From a virus, in IMG/VR virus record IMGVR_UViG_3300024974_000014, positions 1 through 30,979 of that record: 30,979 nt of DNA; one strand, 5' to 3'. The position numbers were made by a program, and so were the translations under genes. Of this stretch, positions 3,181 through 28,916 are shown piece by piece. Under the pieces are notes generated by a model. The model was not told where the DNA came from. It did not search any database and saw only the letters and a list, made by a program, of their open reading frames with translations. The number at the start of each line of letters is the position of its first letter. Position 1 is the first letter of the stretch.

Positions 3181-3786
3181 ATGGAACAAACCTCTAAAGA
3201 ACCTGAAGTGAAATCAACCCAACTTACCTTTATTAATCCCGATCAAATAGTTTCACCGGCCATTCTTGCAGGTATTTTAGGAAGAAACGTAAGTCTATTA
3301 TATCAATGGGCACAAGCCGGAAGATTGCCTTCTCCTCTAAGTAGCTTTACCTACCGTGAATGTCTTACACATTTGATGGACTTTCACAGTAAAGAAGGGA
3401 ATAGAAGAGTCAAAGTAAGAGCACCTGCTGGAGGAGGAGAGTCTGAAGATAATATCCATCCTTTAATGGCTGCAAAACTTGAACAAAGTGTTAAGACAGA
3501 GTATGCGAGAGAAGCTCAACTTTGGCAAGCGATAGCTATTAAGAATGAAGAGTATGTAAGTTTTGCGAACAAACTTGCAGACCTTGAACCCTTTATACTT
3601 AATATAAGAGACTTATTGTTAGGGATTGCTTTAGACTTTCCAGAGACACAGAGTGCTATTGATGAAGGCATGGAGAATTTATATAAACTTGGTACAAGGA
3701 TGTTAGAAGAAGTTAAGATTGATCGAGATGAATTTGTACAAACAATGCTTGACAAACCTATTGATGAACTGGATGAACTCAAATGA
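3181..3786 (+). CDS. terS: Terminase small subunit (DNA-packaging, Nu1-like)
   Basis: The protein has 201 residues. Residues ~24-50 (VSPAILAGILGRNVSLLYQWAQAGRLP) read as a helix-turn-helix/winged-helix of the kind that opens lambda Nu1-type small terminases and recognises the packaging site. The middle is a basic, glycine-containing linker (RVKVRAPAGGGESE). The C-terminal half is helical and acidic, as expected for oligomerisation and contact with the large subunit. It is the first gene of the rightward block and lies one gene before the GpA-type large terminase, which supports the call. Its stop overlaps the next start as ATGA. Identification rests on context plus the HTH; sequence divergence from Nu1 is large. 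Confidence 0.75.
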   Translation: MEQTSKEPEVKSTQLTFINPDQIVSPAILAGILGRNVSLLYQWAQAGRLPSPLSSFTYRECLTHLMDFHSKEGNRRVKVRAPAGGGESEDNIHPLMAAKLEQSVKTEYAREAQLWQAIAIKNEEYVSFANKLADLEPFILNIRDLLLGIALDFPETQSAIDEGMENLYKLGTRMLEEVKIDRDEFVQTMLDKPIDELDELK

Positions 3787-4628
3787 AACATATAGTAAGT
3801 TTTTCAAGTGGTATGGGAAGTTTTGCAGAAGCAAAATCTTGTGTTGATAAATTTGGTAAAGAAGCCACTCTTCTTCTATTTGCAGATACTAAGATAGAAG
3901 ACGAAGATAATTATAGATTCAAAGATGAAGTAGTAGAATTTCTTGGATGTGAGGTCGTAGAACTTTCCGATGGAAGAACACCTTGGGAGTTGTTTAGAGA
4001 TGAAAGATTTGTAGGAAATTCACGATTAGATATATGTTCAAGAGTTCTTAAAAGAGAATTACTAATTAACTGGATAGAAAAGAACTACGGATACGATGTA
4101 GAAGAGCCTATGCTTAATTATCTTGGCTTACCCCTAGTTAATATCTTTGGAGAAGTTTGTAGAACTAATGTTGTAACATATTTAAACGCAGAAGTACATC
4201 TTGGTATAGACTTTTCAGAGCACCATCGCCTTACAAGAGTACAGGAAACGATGAAATCTTGGGTTTATCGTTCGACTTTAGTAGAAGAAGGAAGGATAAT
4301 TCCGAAGAATTATAGTGAGCAATTTGGTATAAGAAAACCAAGACTATATAGTATGGGTTTCGGGCATGCTAACTGTGGAGGTTTTTGTGTTAAAGCAGGT
4401 TTAGGACATTTTAAAACTCTATATGAGAAGTTACCTGAGAGATACAAATCGCATGAAGAACAAGAACAGACTCTTGCTAGAGAAGTAAAAACTTTACCTT
4501 TTTTAAAGAAAACTATAGGCGGGAAAGTTCATTATCTTACTTTAAAGGATTACCGAGAGCAATTTCTCGAAACTAATAAAGCAGAAGAAGATAGGTTTGA
4601 TATTGGTGGATGCGGTTGTGCAATATGA
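3783..4628 (+). CDS. PP-loop ATPase, PAPS-reductase/adenine-nucleotide alpha-hydrolase-like
   Basis: This 281-residue protein opens with a modified PP-loop, SFSSGMGS (6-13), where the fold activates a substrate by adenylation. FADTKIEDED (33-42) follows, as in PAPS-reductase-like proteins, then GNSRLDICSRVLKREL (78-93, Cys85) and PRLYSMGFGHANCGGFCVKAG with Cys198 and Cys202. The tail is GGCGC (Cys277, Cys279). From memory these blocks match a widespread family of phage and bacterial 'adenine nucleotide alpha hydrolases' of unknown substrate. The cysteines could hold an Fe-S cluster or carry sulfur, as in DndC- or TtcA-like enzymes, but this is inference. Residues ~102-127 look like an insertion. 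ATGA overlaps at both ends lock it between the terminase subunits. True sulfate reduction is unlikely here; a nucleic-acid or cofactor modification is more plausible. Confidence 0.8.
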   Translation: MKHIVSFSSGMGSFAEAKSCVDKFGKEATLLLFADTKIEDEDNYRFKDEVVEFLGCEVVELSDGRTPWELFRDERFVGNSRLDICSRVLKRELLINWIEKNYGYDVEEPMLNYLGLPLVNIFGEVCRTNVVTYLNAEVHLGIDFSEHHRLTRVQETMKSWVYRSTLVEEGRIIPKNYSEQFGIRKPRLYSMGFGHANCGGFCVKAGLGHFKTLYEKLPERYKSHEEQEQTLAREVKTLPFLKKTIGGKVHYLTLKDYREQFLETNKAEEDRFDIGGCGCAI

Positions 4629-6706
4629 TTAGAGAAATCCAAAGAGTCCAGGGGAACATATCAGAGCGTTCGCTATTTGCAAAACTCTATACAGCTTTTC
4701 GTAAGGCAGTACGAAGTACGACAATAGAGTGGACAGAAGCTAATCGTACAATGTCCTCTGATGAATCAGCTATACGAGGAAAATTCGATTGCTCTCGCAC
4801 TCCTGCCTTTAAGTACATCTACCATGTATGTGATAATTGGTATATTCACATTGTAGGTATGATGAAATCTTCGCAGATAGGAGCTAGTGAGTTAGAGAAT
4901 AATATAATAGGTAGAAAACTTAACCTTGACCCATGTCATACTGTTGTATTCTTTCCAGGAGTATCACTCCTCAAGGAGTATTCTCGGAAACGCTTCTCTC
5001 CTTTCTTCAAAGGAACGAAAGTTCTTAAAGATAAACTAAATATTGGTATCGCTAAACCTTCACATGATTACTTTACTTTTCCTGGAGGTTCCCTCGGCCT
5101 AAAGACCCTTGGTTCTATTCAATCTGTCTTATCTTCTGCAATTCCGTTTATTATCTTTGAAGAGTTTGCTCAAGTAAAAGCAGATGTAGCTAAACAAGGA
5201 GACCCGCTTGGTCTTGGTATGGGAAGACAGAAGTCTTTCCGGATTGGTAGAAAGAAAGTTCTAGGATTTTCAACTCCTACATTCAAAGATTATTGTAACA
5301 TGGAGAAACTTTTTAATCGAGGGTTTCAACTTATCTTTAAAGCACATTGCTATGCTTGCGAACAACTCGTAGAACTTTCTGGTTGGACAATGGAGCAATG
5401 CTTGCAGTATGATGAATATGGAGATCGTTACATTGATGAAGAGTTTGGAAAATATGATCCAGAAACAGCTACATTTGTATGTCCATCTTGTAAATCTCCT
5501 TGGACTTTTGAGGAAAAGACAGCCAATATAAAGAAAGGACTTAATTTTGGTTTTATAGATGATTGTGGAGACTTCTCCCACGGATGGCATCCAAGAAAAG
5601 AAATAAGAGAAACACTTACATTTGAAGAATACAAAGTCATTGAACCTTCTATAGATAAACTAGTTCTTCGGAAAAAGCTTCGCGATGAGAAAATCTCCCT
5701 AACCTACACATTTCAACATCCAGAAATACTCTCTTGTTTCGAGGCTACATCTGACGCAAGAGTACTTGTAACAAAGAAACTTCTAGCAGCTAAAGCATTG
5801 GAGCGTGGTGATGAATCTCTTTCAAAAGATTGGTGCAATAATAGTCTCGGTTTACCTTATACTTCTGGTGTTACGGCAATTGAAGCAGATGAAATGAAAA
5901 CATTTCGTAAGAACTATATTGAAGGTATAGTTCCAATGGATGGACTTGTTCTTACCGCTGGAATAGATGTACAAGATAATAGATTTGCTATAATAATTCG
6001 TGCATGGGGAAGAAATAATAACTCTTGGCTTGTTAAATGGATAGAGATTTTTGGAGATGTATTGACACAGGAGCAAGATGATGTTGGTAACTTTCTAGGA
6101 GTCTGGGGAGAACTTACAGATTATCTTATACATGGAAACTTTCAACATGTTACAGGGAAACCTATGAAGGTTCATGCAATTTCAATAGACTCTGCTGATA
6201 ATACTGAACTTGTCTACCGTTGGGTTCTTGCAATGTTAAAGTACAATAGCTATGTCTTTGCTACTAAAGGAGCTAAAGATTCTCGATATAGTGATAGTGA
6301 GATTTATAGAGAACCTGCGAAGGTTGATATAAAAACTGACATAGAAACACGTCAAAGTATTGCAGAACGTATGGGAGTTACACTTTTTATGCTTGGAGCA
6401 CATCGCGCACATGAGGAGATTCTCAAACGTGTTGCATTAAATAAAAATCCTGAAGCTCGAAGTAATCTTTACTACCACAACGAGCAAAGCTACGGTAACT
6501 ATGAAGAACAAATGACTTCTTGTAGGAAGATTATCGACATCGGTGGAACTACAGGGAAGTCAGTATTTAAACTCATATCAGGTAAACGTAAAGAAGCTAT
6601 GGATGGAGAGAAACTAGCTATGCACGCTTCTTATGCAGTAGGTATAAGAAATTACGATCATGAAGAATGGAAATCTTTAGAAAAATACTATAACCCAACT
6701 TCATAG
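4625..6706 (+). CDS. terL: Terminase large subunit (lambda GpA family)
   Basis: This is the ATP-driven motor and nuclease that packages phage DNA; 693 residues if ATG 4625 is used. Visible elements are an ATPase P-loop-like GMMKSSQIGASE (~78-89), a Walker B-like FIIFEEFAQ (~175-183), and a zinc-ribbon-like pair CYAC (242-245) and CPSC (286-289). The C-terminal nuclease start LTAGIDVQDNRF (~443-454) parallels lambda gpA. I chose 4625 because ATG there overlaps the PP-loop gene's stop as ATGA, the junction used at the previous gene pair; an in-frame ATG at 4610 would add five residues. Length and domain order are typical of GpA, which implies lambda-like packaging, perhaps at cos ends. Confidence 0.93.
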   Translation: MIREIQRVQGNISERSLFAKLYTAFRKAVRSTTIEWTEANRTMSSDESAIRGKFDCSRTPAFKYIYHVCDNWYIHIVGMMKSSQIGASELENNIIGRKLNLDPCHTVVFFPGVSLLKEYSRKRFSPFFKGTKVLKDKLNIGIAKPSHDYFTFPGGSLGLKTLGSIQSVLSSAIPFIIFEEFAQVKADVAKQGDPLGLGMGRQKSFRIGRKKVLGFSTPTFKDYCNMEKLFNRGFQLIFKAHCYACEQLVELSGWTMEQCLQYDEYGDRYIDEEFGKYDPETATFVCPSCKSPWTFEEKTANIKKGLNFGFIDDCGDFSHGWHPRKEIRETLTFEEYKVIEPSIDKLVLRKKLRDEKISLTYTFQHPEILSCFEATSDARVLVTKKLLAAKALERGDESLSKDWCNNSLGLPYTSGVTAIEADEMKTFRKNYIEGIVPMDGLVLTAGIDVQDNRFAIIIRAWGRNNNSWLVKWIEIFGDVLTQEQDDVGNFLGVWGELTDYLIHGNFQHVTGKPMKVHAISIDSADNTELVYRWVLAMLKYNSYVFATKGAKDSRYSDSEIYREPAKVDIKTDIETRQSIAERMGVTLFMLGAHRAHEEILKRVALNKNPEARSNLYYHNEQSYGNYEEQMTSCRKIIDIGGTTGKSVFKLISGKRKEAMDGEKLAMHASYAVGIRNYDHEEWKSLEKYYNPTS

Positions 6707-26162: not shown

Positions 26163-28916
26163 ATGGAAGATAATAATATACAGTTAGCTATGGGTGGTGG
26201 CGGAGGTGGAAGTACAGTTGTTCCAGATACTGATAAAAGCCAACAAACACTTCTTCTTCTAATTGCATTTAGTGAAGGAGAAGTTGAATCTCTGGATAAT
26301 GTTACTTTCAACGATAGTTCAATAATCAACTATAGTGCTGATGTTGCTTGGGTACGTGGAACAATTACACAAGATAGTATTGAAGGTTTTGATAAAGTAG
26401 GTACATTTATTGGAGGTCCGGCGAGTGAAATTCGTTGTGAAACAGGTGGTTCTCCTAACTCACCGACATATACAATACCTGCTGATGCAAGAACTGCAAG
26501 AGTAATCATATCTTTTCCTTCTGGATTTTCTTGGCAAAGTCCTAAAGGTAATGTAAGTACAAGTGGTGTAGAACTGACAATGGACACTGCTCCGAATGCT
26601 GGAGCTTTAGATGGATTAGACCCTCCAGATTCAATTTCTTGGACAAAATATCGTAACATGGGTAAGGCTGGAATTAAAACCTCTAGCCCCTATAGCTATG
26701 ATATTATGGTTCCTAGACCAGATGGAACTATAGGTTCAACAGGTTGGGCAATACGAGTACGTCGAATATCTGCTGACTCTGTGACATCAGGCCCAGGACA
26801 TTATAACAAAACATACGTCCAAACAGTTGTAGCTTATACAAACACAGACCACACAGTCTATGCTGGAACAGCTTGCTTGGCTGTGAGGATCAATGATGCA
26901 AGTGAAATTGGAAATAGTATTCCTGTTGTAGGAGGTGAAGGTAGAGGTATGAAACTTTACCTTCCTAAATCTACTTACTATGTAAATGACTACACAAATC
27001 CATCCTATAGAACATATCTTTCCAGTTCTTGGGATGGGACATTCGGAACGACAAAAGCTTATACAGAAAATCTTAGTTGGATAATTTACAATCTTTTAGG
27101 AGATAAGTTAAACACCTGGTGTCCTATAGTTCACTACTATTGGGTGTTTAATAATACATCGGAACGAACGTCTTATGTCTATCCAGATAATGCAGCAGGT
27201 AAATGGGTAAAACAACTTGATGATCCTGATAATGTGTGGAGAATTACTTCAGTAGTGCCAACTGTAGGTACTGCTACGTTTACAACAGTTAGCTCAACTT
27301 CACCTACAGTTAGGCAAAGAATTATTCGTGGTATTGGGATTCCTGAAGAGTATCTTGCAAAGTATACTTTTGAAAAATTTGCACGATATTGTGATGAAGT
27401 AATCACTACTACGTATAATGGAAATTCTTATTCTGAGTTTCGGCATAGTGTGCATGGTCAATTTCTTGAGCGTAAAGATGCTGAAGTATTCTTAAATGAA
27501 TTACTTAGTATTGGTAATGCAAATATTGTAGAAATTGATGGACTTGTTAGTGTTATATATGATAAGAAATTAACAACGGATGAACTAGCAGTAGTTCCAC
27601 TTTTTACGAATCAAAATGTAGATAATGGTGTCTTTGAATATTCTGGAAGTGATATTACTGAAAACTATACTCAAATCAACATCACTATTCAAGATAAAGA
27701 TAATATGAATAGGACAAAAACTGTCTCTGTACAGAGTGGAGAACTTGCAACTTATCTAAGTAAATCATCTTCGACATACTACACTGATCTTTATGGGTTT
27801 AATTCTACTGATATAGTCTTACAAGGTTGTAATAGTGATTTTACGGCAGTACGTAAGGGAAGAAGTCTACTCTTTGATAGTTTAGAAAACGATAGATTTG
27901 TTCATTTTAAACTAAGTTTACTAGCAACAAAGTTACACAAGGGACAAGTTATACAAGTTCAAGACTCTGATAATGCGAAAGAAACACTTTCTGGAAGAGT
28001 GATTTCATCATCTTGGACTTCTGGAGTATTAACACTTCATCTTGATAGGAGTTTAACGCTTTCAGGAGTAACATATCTTACAGTCTATGCTCAAGGAGCA
28101 GCTACAACTAATACAAAACTAACTGATACCGATACTTATTCTTTTCTTCGTGCAGTGAAACTTACTTTAAATGAAACTTCTGGAGTACATTCTACTGTTA
28201 CAGCAGATACAGCTTCACTAACCCTTGTTCCTGAGAGTATTTTTGCAGTAGTTTCAACAGAAATAGAATATTTCACTATTACCCAAATTACTTTTGAAGA
28301 TGGTTTCTATATTATCTCTGGTTTAAAGTACCAAACAGTTAAATTCGACTACATCGAATATATAAGATCAGATGTAAAATCTACAACTAATAAACTTGCA
28401 CTCCGTAGTAAGAATAACAAAGTTATTATTGATCCTGCAACAGATATTACTTTTGCAATCTCCTACAGCACTGTATCTGACCATGCAATAGTTAACGAAG
28501 AAAGAGGAATTTATAGTTTTAATCTAGTATGGACACACGTTCCAGTGATGGATGATGAAGCACTTCGTCTTGTACGAAAGACAACTTATAAAGTTGTTTG
28601 TAAATTCCCTAACGGAAGTATAAGTATTTTTCATGTAGATGGTAATCATACTGAACTCTATAAGACCACAGATACTATATTTAAGGTTGGAGAAACTCCT
28701 GATACAGAATATAATTACATCTATGGAGAACTTACAGTTCCGATACCGAATCAAATCTTTGATGAACTACAAGGTGATGAGAATTTGACTTTTACCTTCT
28801 CAATCACTGCATCTTGTAATGGTGCAGACGATAGTCTTGCAAAGATTATAACAAAAAATATTTATGCAGGAGATATAAATTATAATGTAATTAGTGGGAG
28901 TCTATACGATGCGTAA
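26163..28916 (+). CDS. Central tail tip / host-specificity protein (gpJ-like)
   Basis: The protein has 917 residues, against 1132 for lambda gpJ. It has the short poly-Gly N-terminus (MGGGGGGST), then SQQTLLLLIAFSEGEVESL as in the J family ('...v.dllsEGpI.Gl'). Next come a hub domain with WTKYRNMGKAGIKTSSPYSYDI and WAIRVRRISADS, and the RQRIIRGIGIPEEYLAKYTFEKFARYC block. Fibronectin-like beta domains lie toward the C-terminus. As the central hub and fibre it trimerises at the tail tip and, in lambda, recognises the receptor. The C-terminal receptor-binding part is shorter here, and three fibre-like genes follow. Good ribosome binding site (AGGA, five bases, ATG). Stop overlaps the next start. 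Confidence 0.88.
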   Translation: MEDNNIQLAMGGGGGGSTVVPDTDKSQQTLLLLIAFSEGEVESLDNVTFNDSSIINYSADVAWVRGTITQDSIEGFDKVGTFIGGPASEIRCETGGSPNSPTYTIPADARTARVIISFPSGFSWQSPKGNVSTSGVELTMDTAPNAGALDGLDPPDSISWTKYRNMGKAGIKTSSPYSYDIMVPRPDGTIGSTGWAIRVRRISADSVTSGPGHYNKTYVQTVVAYTNTDHTVYAGTACLAVRINDASEIGNSIPVVGGEGRGMKLYLPKSTYYVNDYTNPSYRTYLSSSWDGTFGTTKAYTENLSWIIYNLLGDKLNTWCPIVHYYWVFNNTSERTSYVYPDNAAGKWVKQLDDPDNVWRITSVVPTVGTATFTTVSSTSPTVRQRIIRGIGIPEEYLAKYTFEKFARYCDEVITTTYNGNSYSEFRHSVHGQFLERKDAEVFLNELLSIGNANIVEIDGLVSVIYDKKLTTDELAVVPLFTNQNVDNGVFEYSGSDITENYTQINITIQDKDNMNRTKTVSVQSGELATYLSKSSSTYYTDLYGFNSTDIVLQGCNSDFTAVRKGRSLLFDSLENDRFVHFKLSLLATKLHKGQVIQVQDSDNAKETLSGRVISSSWTSGVLTLHLDRSLTLSGVTYLTVYAQGAATTNTKLTDTDTYSFLRAVKLTLNETSGVHSTVTADTASLTLVPESIFAVVSTEIEYFTITQITFEDGFYIISGLKYQTVKFDYIEYIRSDVKSTTNKLALRSKNNKVIIDPATDITFAISYSTVSDHAIVNEERGIYSFNLVWTHVPVMDDEALRLVRKTTYKVVCKFPNGSISIFHVDGNHTELYKTTDTIFKVGETPDTEYNYIYGELTVPIPNQIFDELQGDENLTFTFSITASCNGADDSLAKIITKNIYAGDINYNVISGSLYDA

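Follow-up and report, generated by a model that had tools for sequence, protein, structure and literature searches.

A gene for an SspD/PptA-like, putative sulfur-transfer protein lies beside the terminase genes in a phage lineage

A gene at positions 3783-4628 of a virus record from IMG/VR encodes a 281-residue PP-loop protein that, judged by profile comparison, very probably belongs to the branch that holds bacterial SspD and phage PptA. The record, the whole of which (30,979 bases, probably a fragment) is called the window here, thus carries a further representative of a common kind of phage enzyme already known as phrog_424. We propose, as a reading about as likely to be right as wrong, that the protein is an orphan enzyme that would take sulfur from a host cysteine desulfurase and deliver it, probably to a nucleic-acid phosphate, in counter-defence. 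The gene, its motifs and its two neighbors are as follows.

3181-3786, plus strand: presumed small terminase subunit (TerS), named by position and conserved gene order only; its stop overlaps the start of the next gene
3783-4628, plus strand: gene for the SspD/PptA-like PP-loop protein, a putative sulfur transferase of phrog_424 (annotation 'PAPS reductase'); ATG start, 281 aa
3798-3821, plus strand: degenerate PP-loop SFSSGMGS, residues 6-13; S8, G10, and S13 are invariant in the alignment of 99 homologues
4035-4037, plus strand: Cys85, probable iron-sulfur ligand; invariant and aligned with SspD Cys88
4374-4388, plus strand: CGGFC (Cys198 and Cys202), probable iron-sulfur ligands; invariant and aligned with the SspD CxxC
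4611-4619, plus strand: CGC (Cys277 and Cys279), candidate sulfur-carrying cysteines in the C-terminal low-confidence tail
4625-6706, plus strand: large terminase subunit (TerL), lambda gpA type; its start overlaps the stop of 3783-4628

The gene is joined to its neighbors by ATGA overlaps, one at 3783-3786 (stop of the upstream gene and start of 3783-4628) and the other at 4625-4628 (stop of 3783-4628 and start of TerL, which also has an alternative in-frame ATG start at 4610). The original prediction had placed the gene between the two terminase subunits. The joins on both sides are there and the large terminase neighbor is clearly of the gpA type (PF20454 4.6e-44, PF05876 1.2e-37, phrog_15 3.7e-98), whereas the small terminase label is a presumption, with no convincing Pfam or PHROG family match to the 3181-3786 gene or to its relatives. 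The open reading frame is not a product of chance, given that the longest open frame in shuffles of the whole window was 164 codons, that homologues of 73-76% identity exist and that the gene is under purifying selection. The last point follows from comparison with the relative in phage L045 (76% identity), which gave a low dN (0.19) relative to a dS of about 1.7 that is near saturation, values similar to those of TerL. Base composition is that of the neighboring genes. The protein has cysteines at positions 20, 56, 85, 126, 198, 202, 277, and 279, and the features described for it at the outset (its length, the PP-loop SFSSGMGS at residues 6-13, Cys85, CGGFC at 198-202 and a C-terminal CGC at 277-279) are all present. 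Elsewhere in the window, positions 879-1184 of the minus strand encode a short protein with collagen-like G-x-x repeats, near a GH19 endolysin at 1937-2497.

The protein matched phrog_424, labelled 'phosphoadenosine phosphosulfate reductase', over residues 1-279 (E 3.7e-29), a family that takes in PptA, SspD, and BrxP as well as the window protein. When it was scanned with the PADLOC models at E values up to 1, SspD was the sole family returned (3.8e-5) and the DndC profiles gave no match; NCBIfam had no family for it. We then compared families by use of A2, an alignment of 99 relatives drawn from phages, viral contigs, and genomes. The hhalign values were 99.6% for PptA (1.1e-23), 99.3% for SspD (9.9e-21), 94% for BrxP (1e-7), 26% over 86 columns for CysH, 6.7% for QueC, and 0.7% for TtcA, SspD being represented by a three-sequence profile and the other comparators by single sequences. 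CysH, TtcA, and QueC were thereby ruled out as the closest relatives.

The cysteine layout of the SspD/PptA branch is found in the window protein: C85 follows the PP-loop domain, C198 and C202 form a CX(2-3)C motif, and C277 and C279 form a pair. All five are among the invariant positions of A2, as are the PP-loop residues S8, G10, and S13. In a 157-sequence alignment of relatives that includes PptA, C85, C198, and C202 were present in every sequence and C277 and C279 in 152 of the 157. The enzyme class proposed for this protein at the outset includes relatives of DndC and TtcA. Its nearest characterized bacterial relative is SspD, which in the Ssp phosphorothioation system takes the place of DndC; TtcA is a far weaker match than SspD. 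Homologues are carried by cultured phages such as mycobacteriophage Pound and Bacillus phage Stills. Several records of mycobacteriophages and Bacillus phages label proteins of the phrog_424 type as tRNA methyltransferase or ribonucleotide reductase (among them L008:1676-2593 and L010:4001-4906).

An AlphaFold2 model built on A2 had a mean pLDDT of 95, with the CGC motif carried on a low-confidence tail. The model has the PP-loop fold, and comparison with the PDB gave matches of Z 11-13.5 to PAPS/APS reductases, GMP synthetases, LarE, TtuA, and NcsA. The fold predicted originally, that of a PP-loop/PAPS-reductase enzyme of the sulfur-insertion kind, was thus borne out by the model. Fold comparison of a predicted structure does not discriminate among PP-loop families, however, and the choice among these came from the profiles. 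DndC was not among the PDB fold matches listed, which is uninformative either way.

The common annotation would make the protein a genuine PAPS/APS reductase, an auxiliary metabolic enzyme by which the infecting phage raises sulfur assimilation. PAPS/APS reductases head the fold ranking (Z 13.5 and 12.8), the protein shares with CysH the PP-loop adenine-nucleotide fold, and its PP-loop is without the ATP-type Lys-Asp. In CysH the catalytic cysteine lies on a C-terminal tail, and the catalytic-looking cysteines of the window protein are similarly placed. However, the match to PF01507 was weak, at 18.1 bits falling below the gathering score of 22.5 (E. coli CysH scored 199.5), the ECGxH signature of CysH is absent from a tail that reads GGCGCAI, and the CysH profile match is poor beside those of SspD and PptA. 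We consider a true reductase quite unlikely. A TtcA/TtuA-like tRNA thiolase that tunes translation during infection also seems unlikely to us. Fold matches at Z ~11-11.6 include the sulfur transferases TtuA, NcsA, and LarE, which have 4Fe-4S forms, but the TtcA comparison was very poor, an RNA-binding domain was not detected in the window protein and the recurrent bacterial association of the family is with DNA phosphorothioation genes.

The A2 profile gave one match among PDB sequences, chain C of entry 21fy, which is named 'PptA' (E 1.4e-27). Over 250 residues this chain has the same sequence as a protein from the Vibrio harveyi phage vB_VhaP_VH-5, and a search of the PDB with the E. coli IscS sequence found IscS in the same entry. 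Hence, one structure entry combines a phage-encoded family member with a host cysteine desulfurase; a literature search found no publication on PptA. Like the window protein, PptA is a phage-encoded orphan of phrog_424, and the S-G-S residues of the PP-loop, C85, C198, C202, and the C-terminal cysteines align between the two. They differ in that PptA is only ~22% identical to the window protein, has SCGAPS as its PP-loop, spaces its C-terminal cysteines differently and has its gene, in a T7-like phage, between those for the RNA polymerase and the head. We predict with fair confidence that the window protein transfers sulfur by use of the host cysteine desulfurase, which would probably be its donor; a nucleic-acid phosphate as its substrate is predicted with less confidence.

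The presence of PptA and IscS in one PDB entry would also suit a decoy or inhibitor that binds host IscS or displaces SspD in Ssp complexes, blocking host phosphorothioation or the flow of sulfur to Fe-S clusters and tRNA and itself modifying nothing. A degenerate PP-loop and the lack of SspB/C beside the phage copies of the gene are what such a protein might have. However, the five putative catalytic cysteines and S8, G10, and S13 are kept family-wide, which would be needless for a mere binder, and phage-type copies occur also within bacterial Ssp loci. We regard a decoy as possible but doubtful and favor sulfur transfer.

The SspD comparators were taken from plasmid loci that encode a DUF4007 protein (SspB), an SspC-like ATPase and a PAPS-reductase-family protein, two of them together with a cysteine desulfurase gene. 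SspD and the window protein have in common the same fold region, a 1 + 2 + 2 cysteine layout and the same PHROG and PADLOC family. The differences lie in the PP-loop (SGGKDS in the three plasmid-borne SspD proteins, SSGMGS without Lys-Asp in the window protein), in the paired cysteines (CX2C in SspD and CX3C in the window protein, followed by a C-terminal CX2C and CxC, respectively) and in an additional stretch, at residues ~103-135, that marks the clade of the window protein. The Firmicutes SspD proteins encoded beside SspB/C have SGGxxS and are likewise without K-D. SspD is also encoded with SspA, SspB, and SspC, whereas no such partners accompany the window gene within this incomplete record. 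BrxP has a core homologous to the window protein, to which a further domain and a cysteine-rich region add length (PMC12839542).

DndC is likewise described in the literature as a PP-loop enzyme with Fe-S cysteines that obtains its sulfur from DndA/IscS, but PADLOC gave no DndC match to the window protein and no DndA, DndD, or DndE was present among the proteins scanned here, as had been noted before. The 4Fe-4S cluster of DndC has four cysteine ligands, three of which are in common with APS reductase (PMC12193691). By analogy with this pattern, Cys85, Cys198, Cys202, and one tail cysteine of the window protein are likely to be Fe-S ligands.

Neither the window nor the partial records of the sister phages L014 and L045 gave a match to SspB, SspC, or an IscS-like protein; hence a complete Ssp system within the phage was not found in these three incomplete records. 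Likewise, SspB/C adjoined the gene in none of the 76 viral homologues, all of which have a GGCxC tail. We examined bacterial genome loci picked by similarity to the family for SspB and/or SspC within 6 kb. Such loci held 17 of the 20 homologues with the SspD-type PCVC tail and 9 of the 44 phage-type homologues (GGCxC tail), and PADLOC confirmed SspB, SspC, and BrxP in the loci tested (L149, L117, L128, and L130). In each of five Ssp loci (L100, from Bacillus sp. FJAT-27445, L107, L123, L137, and L147), SspD is accompanied by a phage-type copy that runs in the same direction.

Firmicutes Ssp loci can have two SspD-type genes (L100:4347-6804, L107:3784-6783, L123:4856-6792, L137:4273-6792, L147:6001-12525, and also L128), of which the copy with the PCVC tail adjoins SspC and the second is of the phage type; the phage-type copy of L128 is without C-terminal cysteines. 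In L117:6001-12780, L112, and L113 a phage-type gene lies beside a BrxP-SspB-SspC set (BrxP being PADLOC-confirmed in L117 only), and type-4 BREX/Ssp-like loci thus also carry the phage-type gene. SspD-type genes with a PCxC tail occur in L164, L170, and L171 with no SspB/SspC within 6 kb. Two unverified metagenome scaffolds recorded as gut 'phage' (L264 and L265; MT835493 and MT835506) encode homologues of BrxP, SspB, and SspC one after another, and were left out of the evidence.

The site of the gene had suggested a modification linked to packaging. In the viral contigs a single TerL protein used as query gave no match, whereas a TerL alignment recovered relatives; TerL was located in 25 other records, and nine annotated phage neighborhoods were read. 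TerL identity to the window was 72% for L045, 51% for L173, 48% for both L174 and L014, 43% for L019, and 35% for L021. In these seven phages of one lineage, the window included, the gene lies before TerS in one (L014), between TerS and TerL in one (the window) and after TerL in three (L045, L019, and L021), and it was not found in two syntenic but incomplete records, L173 and L174, where TerS adjoins TerL. It is within ~1.5 kb of TerL in L014, L019, L021, and L045, the last of which also has overlapping gene and TerL frames, and near TerL in a few other phages. Other contigs have it 1.5-8 kb upstream of TerL, on the opposite strand, or far off; outside the phages that have the two genes close together, the distances run from 2.3 to 35 kb. 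Most other contigs and the cultured phages have it in early or replication regions, kilobases from TerL, and its neighbors in the cultured phages are genes for replication, MazG, dCMP deaminase, primase, or exonuclease. These positions rule out terminase linkage as a general rule: homologues sit beside terminase genes within the close lineage but, a few cases apart, not elsewhere. Outside this lineage the pattern is the one named at the outset as refuting a packaging link. Between the window and L014 the gene is 73% identical and TerL 48%, which fits gene exchange or slower change of the gene. The best reading is that of a mobile accessory gene which, in the lineage of the window, came to rest among the packaging genes, and its place beside terminase is a habit of that lineage, not a clue to function. 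The tail-tip gpJ-like protein of the L014 phage record (L256:2-4942) carries a PT-HINT domain (7e-13) close to the N-terminus; no such domain was found in the window counterpart at 26163-28916.

A packaging-linked enzyme would modify DNA in or close to the packaging site, leaving a mark for terminase to read, hence the TerS-gene-TerL operon. The overlap of the frame with both its neighbors in the window, and its closeness to TerL in the four related phages, are as such an enzyme would have them, but the three different slots, the two syntenic records in which the gene was not found and the distance of most homologues from terminase leave the packaging role mostly unsupported, and we consider it extremely unlikely. 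Very unlikely, too, is a scheme in which, at the time of late expression, one phage protein with no other help than the host cysteine desulfurase equips phage DNA with a phosphorothioate or other sulfur mark, and the co-translated terminase of this lineage packages or recognizes the marked DNA.

In the mechanism we favor, that of an orphan sulfur-transfer enzyme, the window protein would dock on the host cysteine desulfurase (IscS or its equivalent), the C-terminal CxC would take up the persulfide sulfur and a putative Fe-S cluster would be held by Cys85, Cys198, Cys202, and one further cysteine. The acceptor of the sulfur would be a nucleotide or phosphate group and the most probable product a phosphorothioate in nucleic acid, for and against which we see about equal chances; the resulting mark would protect the phage against host nucleases. 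As SspA, SspB, and SspC were not found in the sequence examined, the desulfurase and possibly other partners would be supplied by the host, or the protein would act alone. The slot between TerS and TerL would be the result of accessory-gene insertion and would give co-expression with the packaging operon.

Three points cast the most doubt on this mechanism: the PP-loop is without Lys-Asp, partner genes are lacking, and a decoy would also fit the IscS complex. Given the lack of Lys-Asp, the protein may have little or no ATP-pyrophosphatase activity, a trait that it would share with PAPS reductases. Known phosphorothioation needs an ATPase and DNA-binding partners. The literature is divided on phage PAPS reductases, which are assigned to sulfur metabolism, considered possible anti-Dnd genes or left open (PMC10945359, PMC11437467), and in one study it made no difference to infection by vibriophages that carry a PAPS-reductase gene whether the host was Dnd+ or Dnd- (PMC10945359).

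Phage genes that carry the 'PAPS reductase' label are very common: a scan of IMG/VR gave at least 562 matching stretches, and matches were present in 71 of the phage records searched. The label is usually taken to mean sulfur metabolism in phages. Our results move one large group of these proteins to the SspD side, where the insertion of sulfur is tied to DNA phosphorothioation and host IscS is the likely donor. If phages use these proteins to place sulfur marks on their own nucleic acid or to jam host marking, this would be a widespread and directly testable form of counter-defence, overlooked owing to a misleading label.
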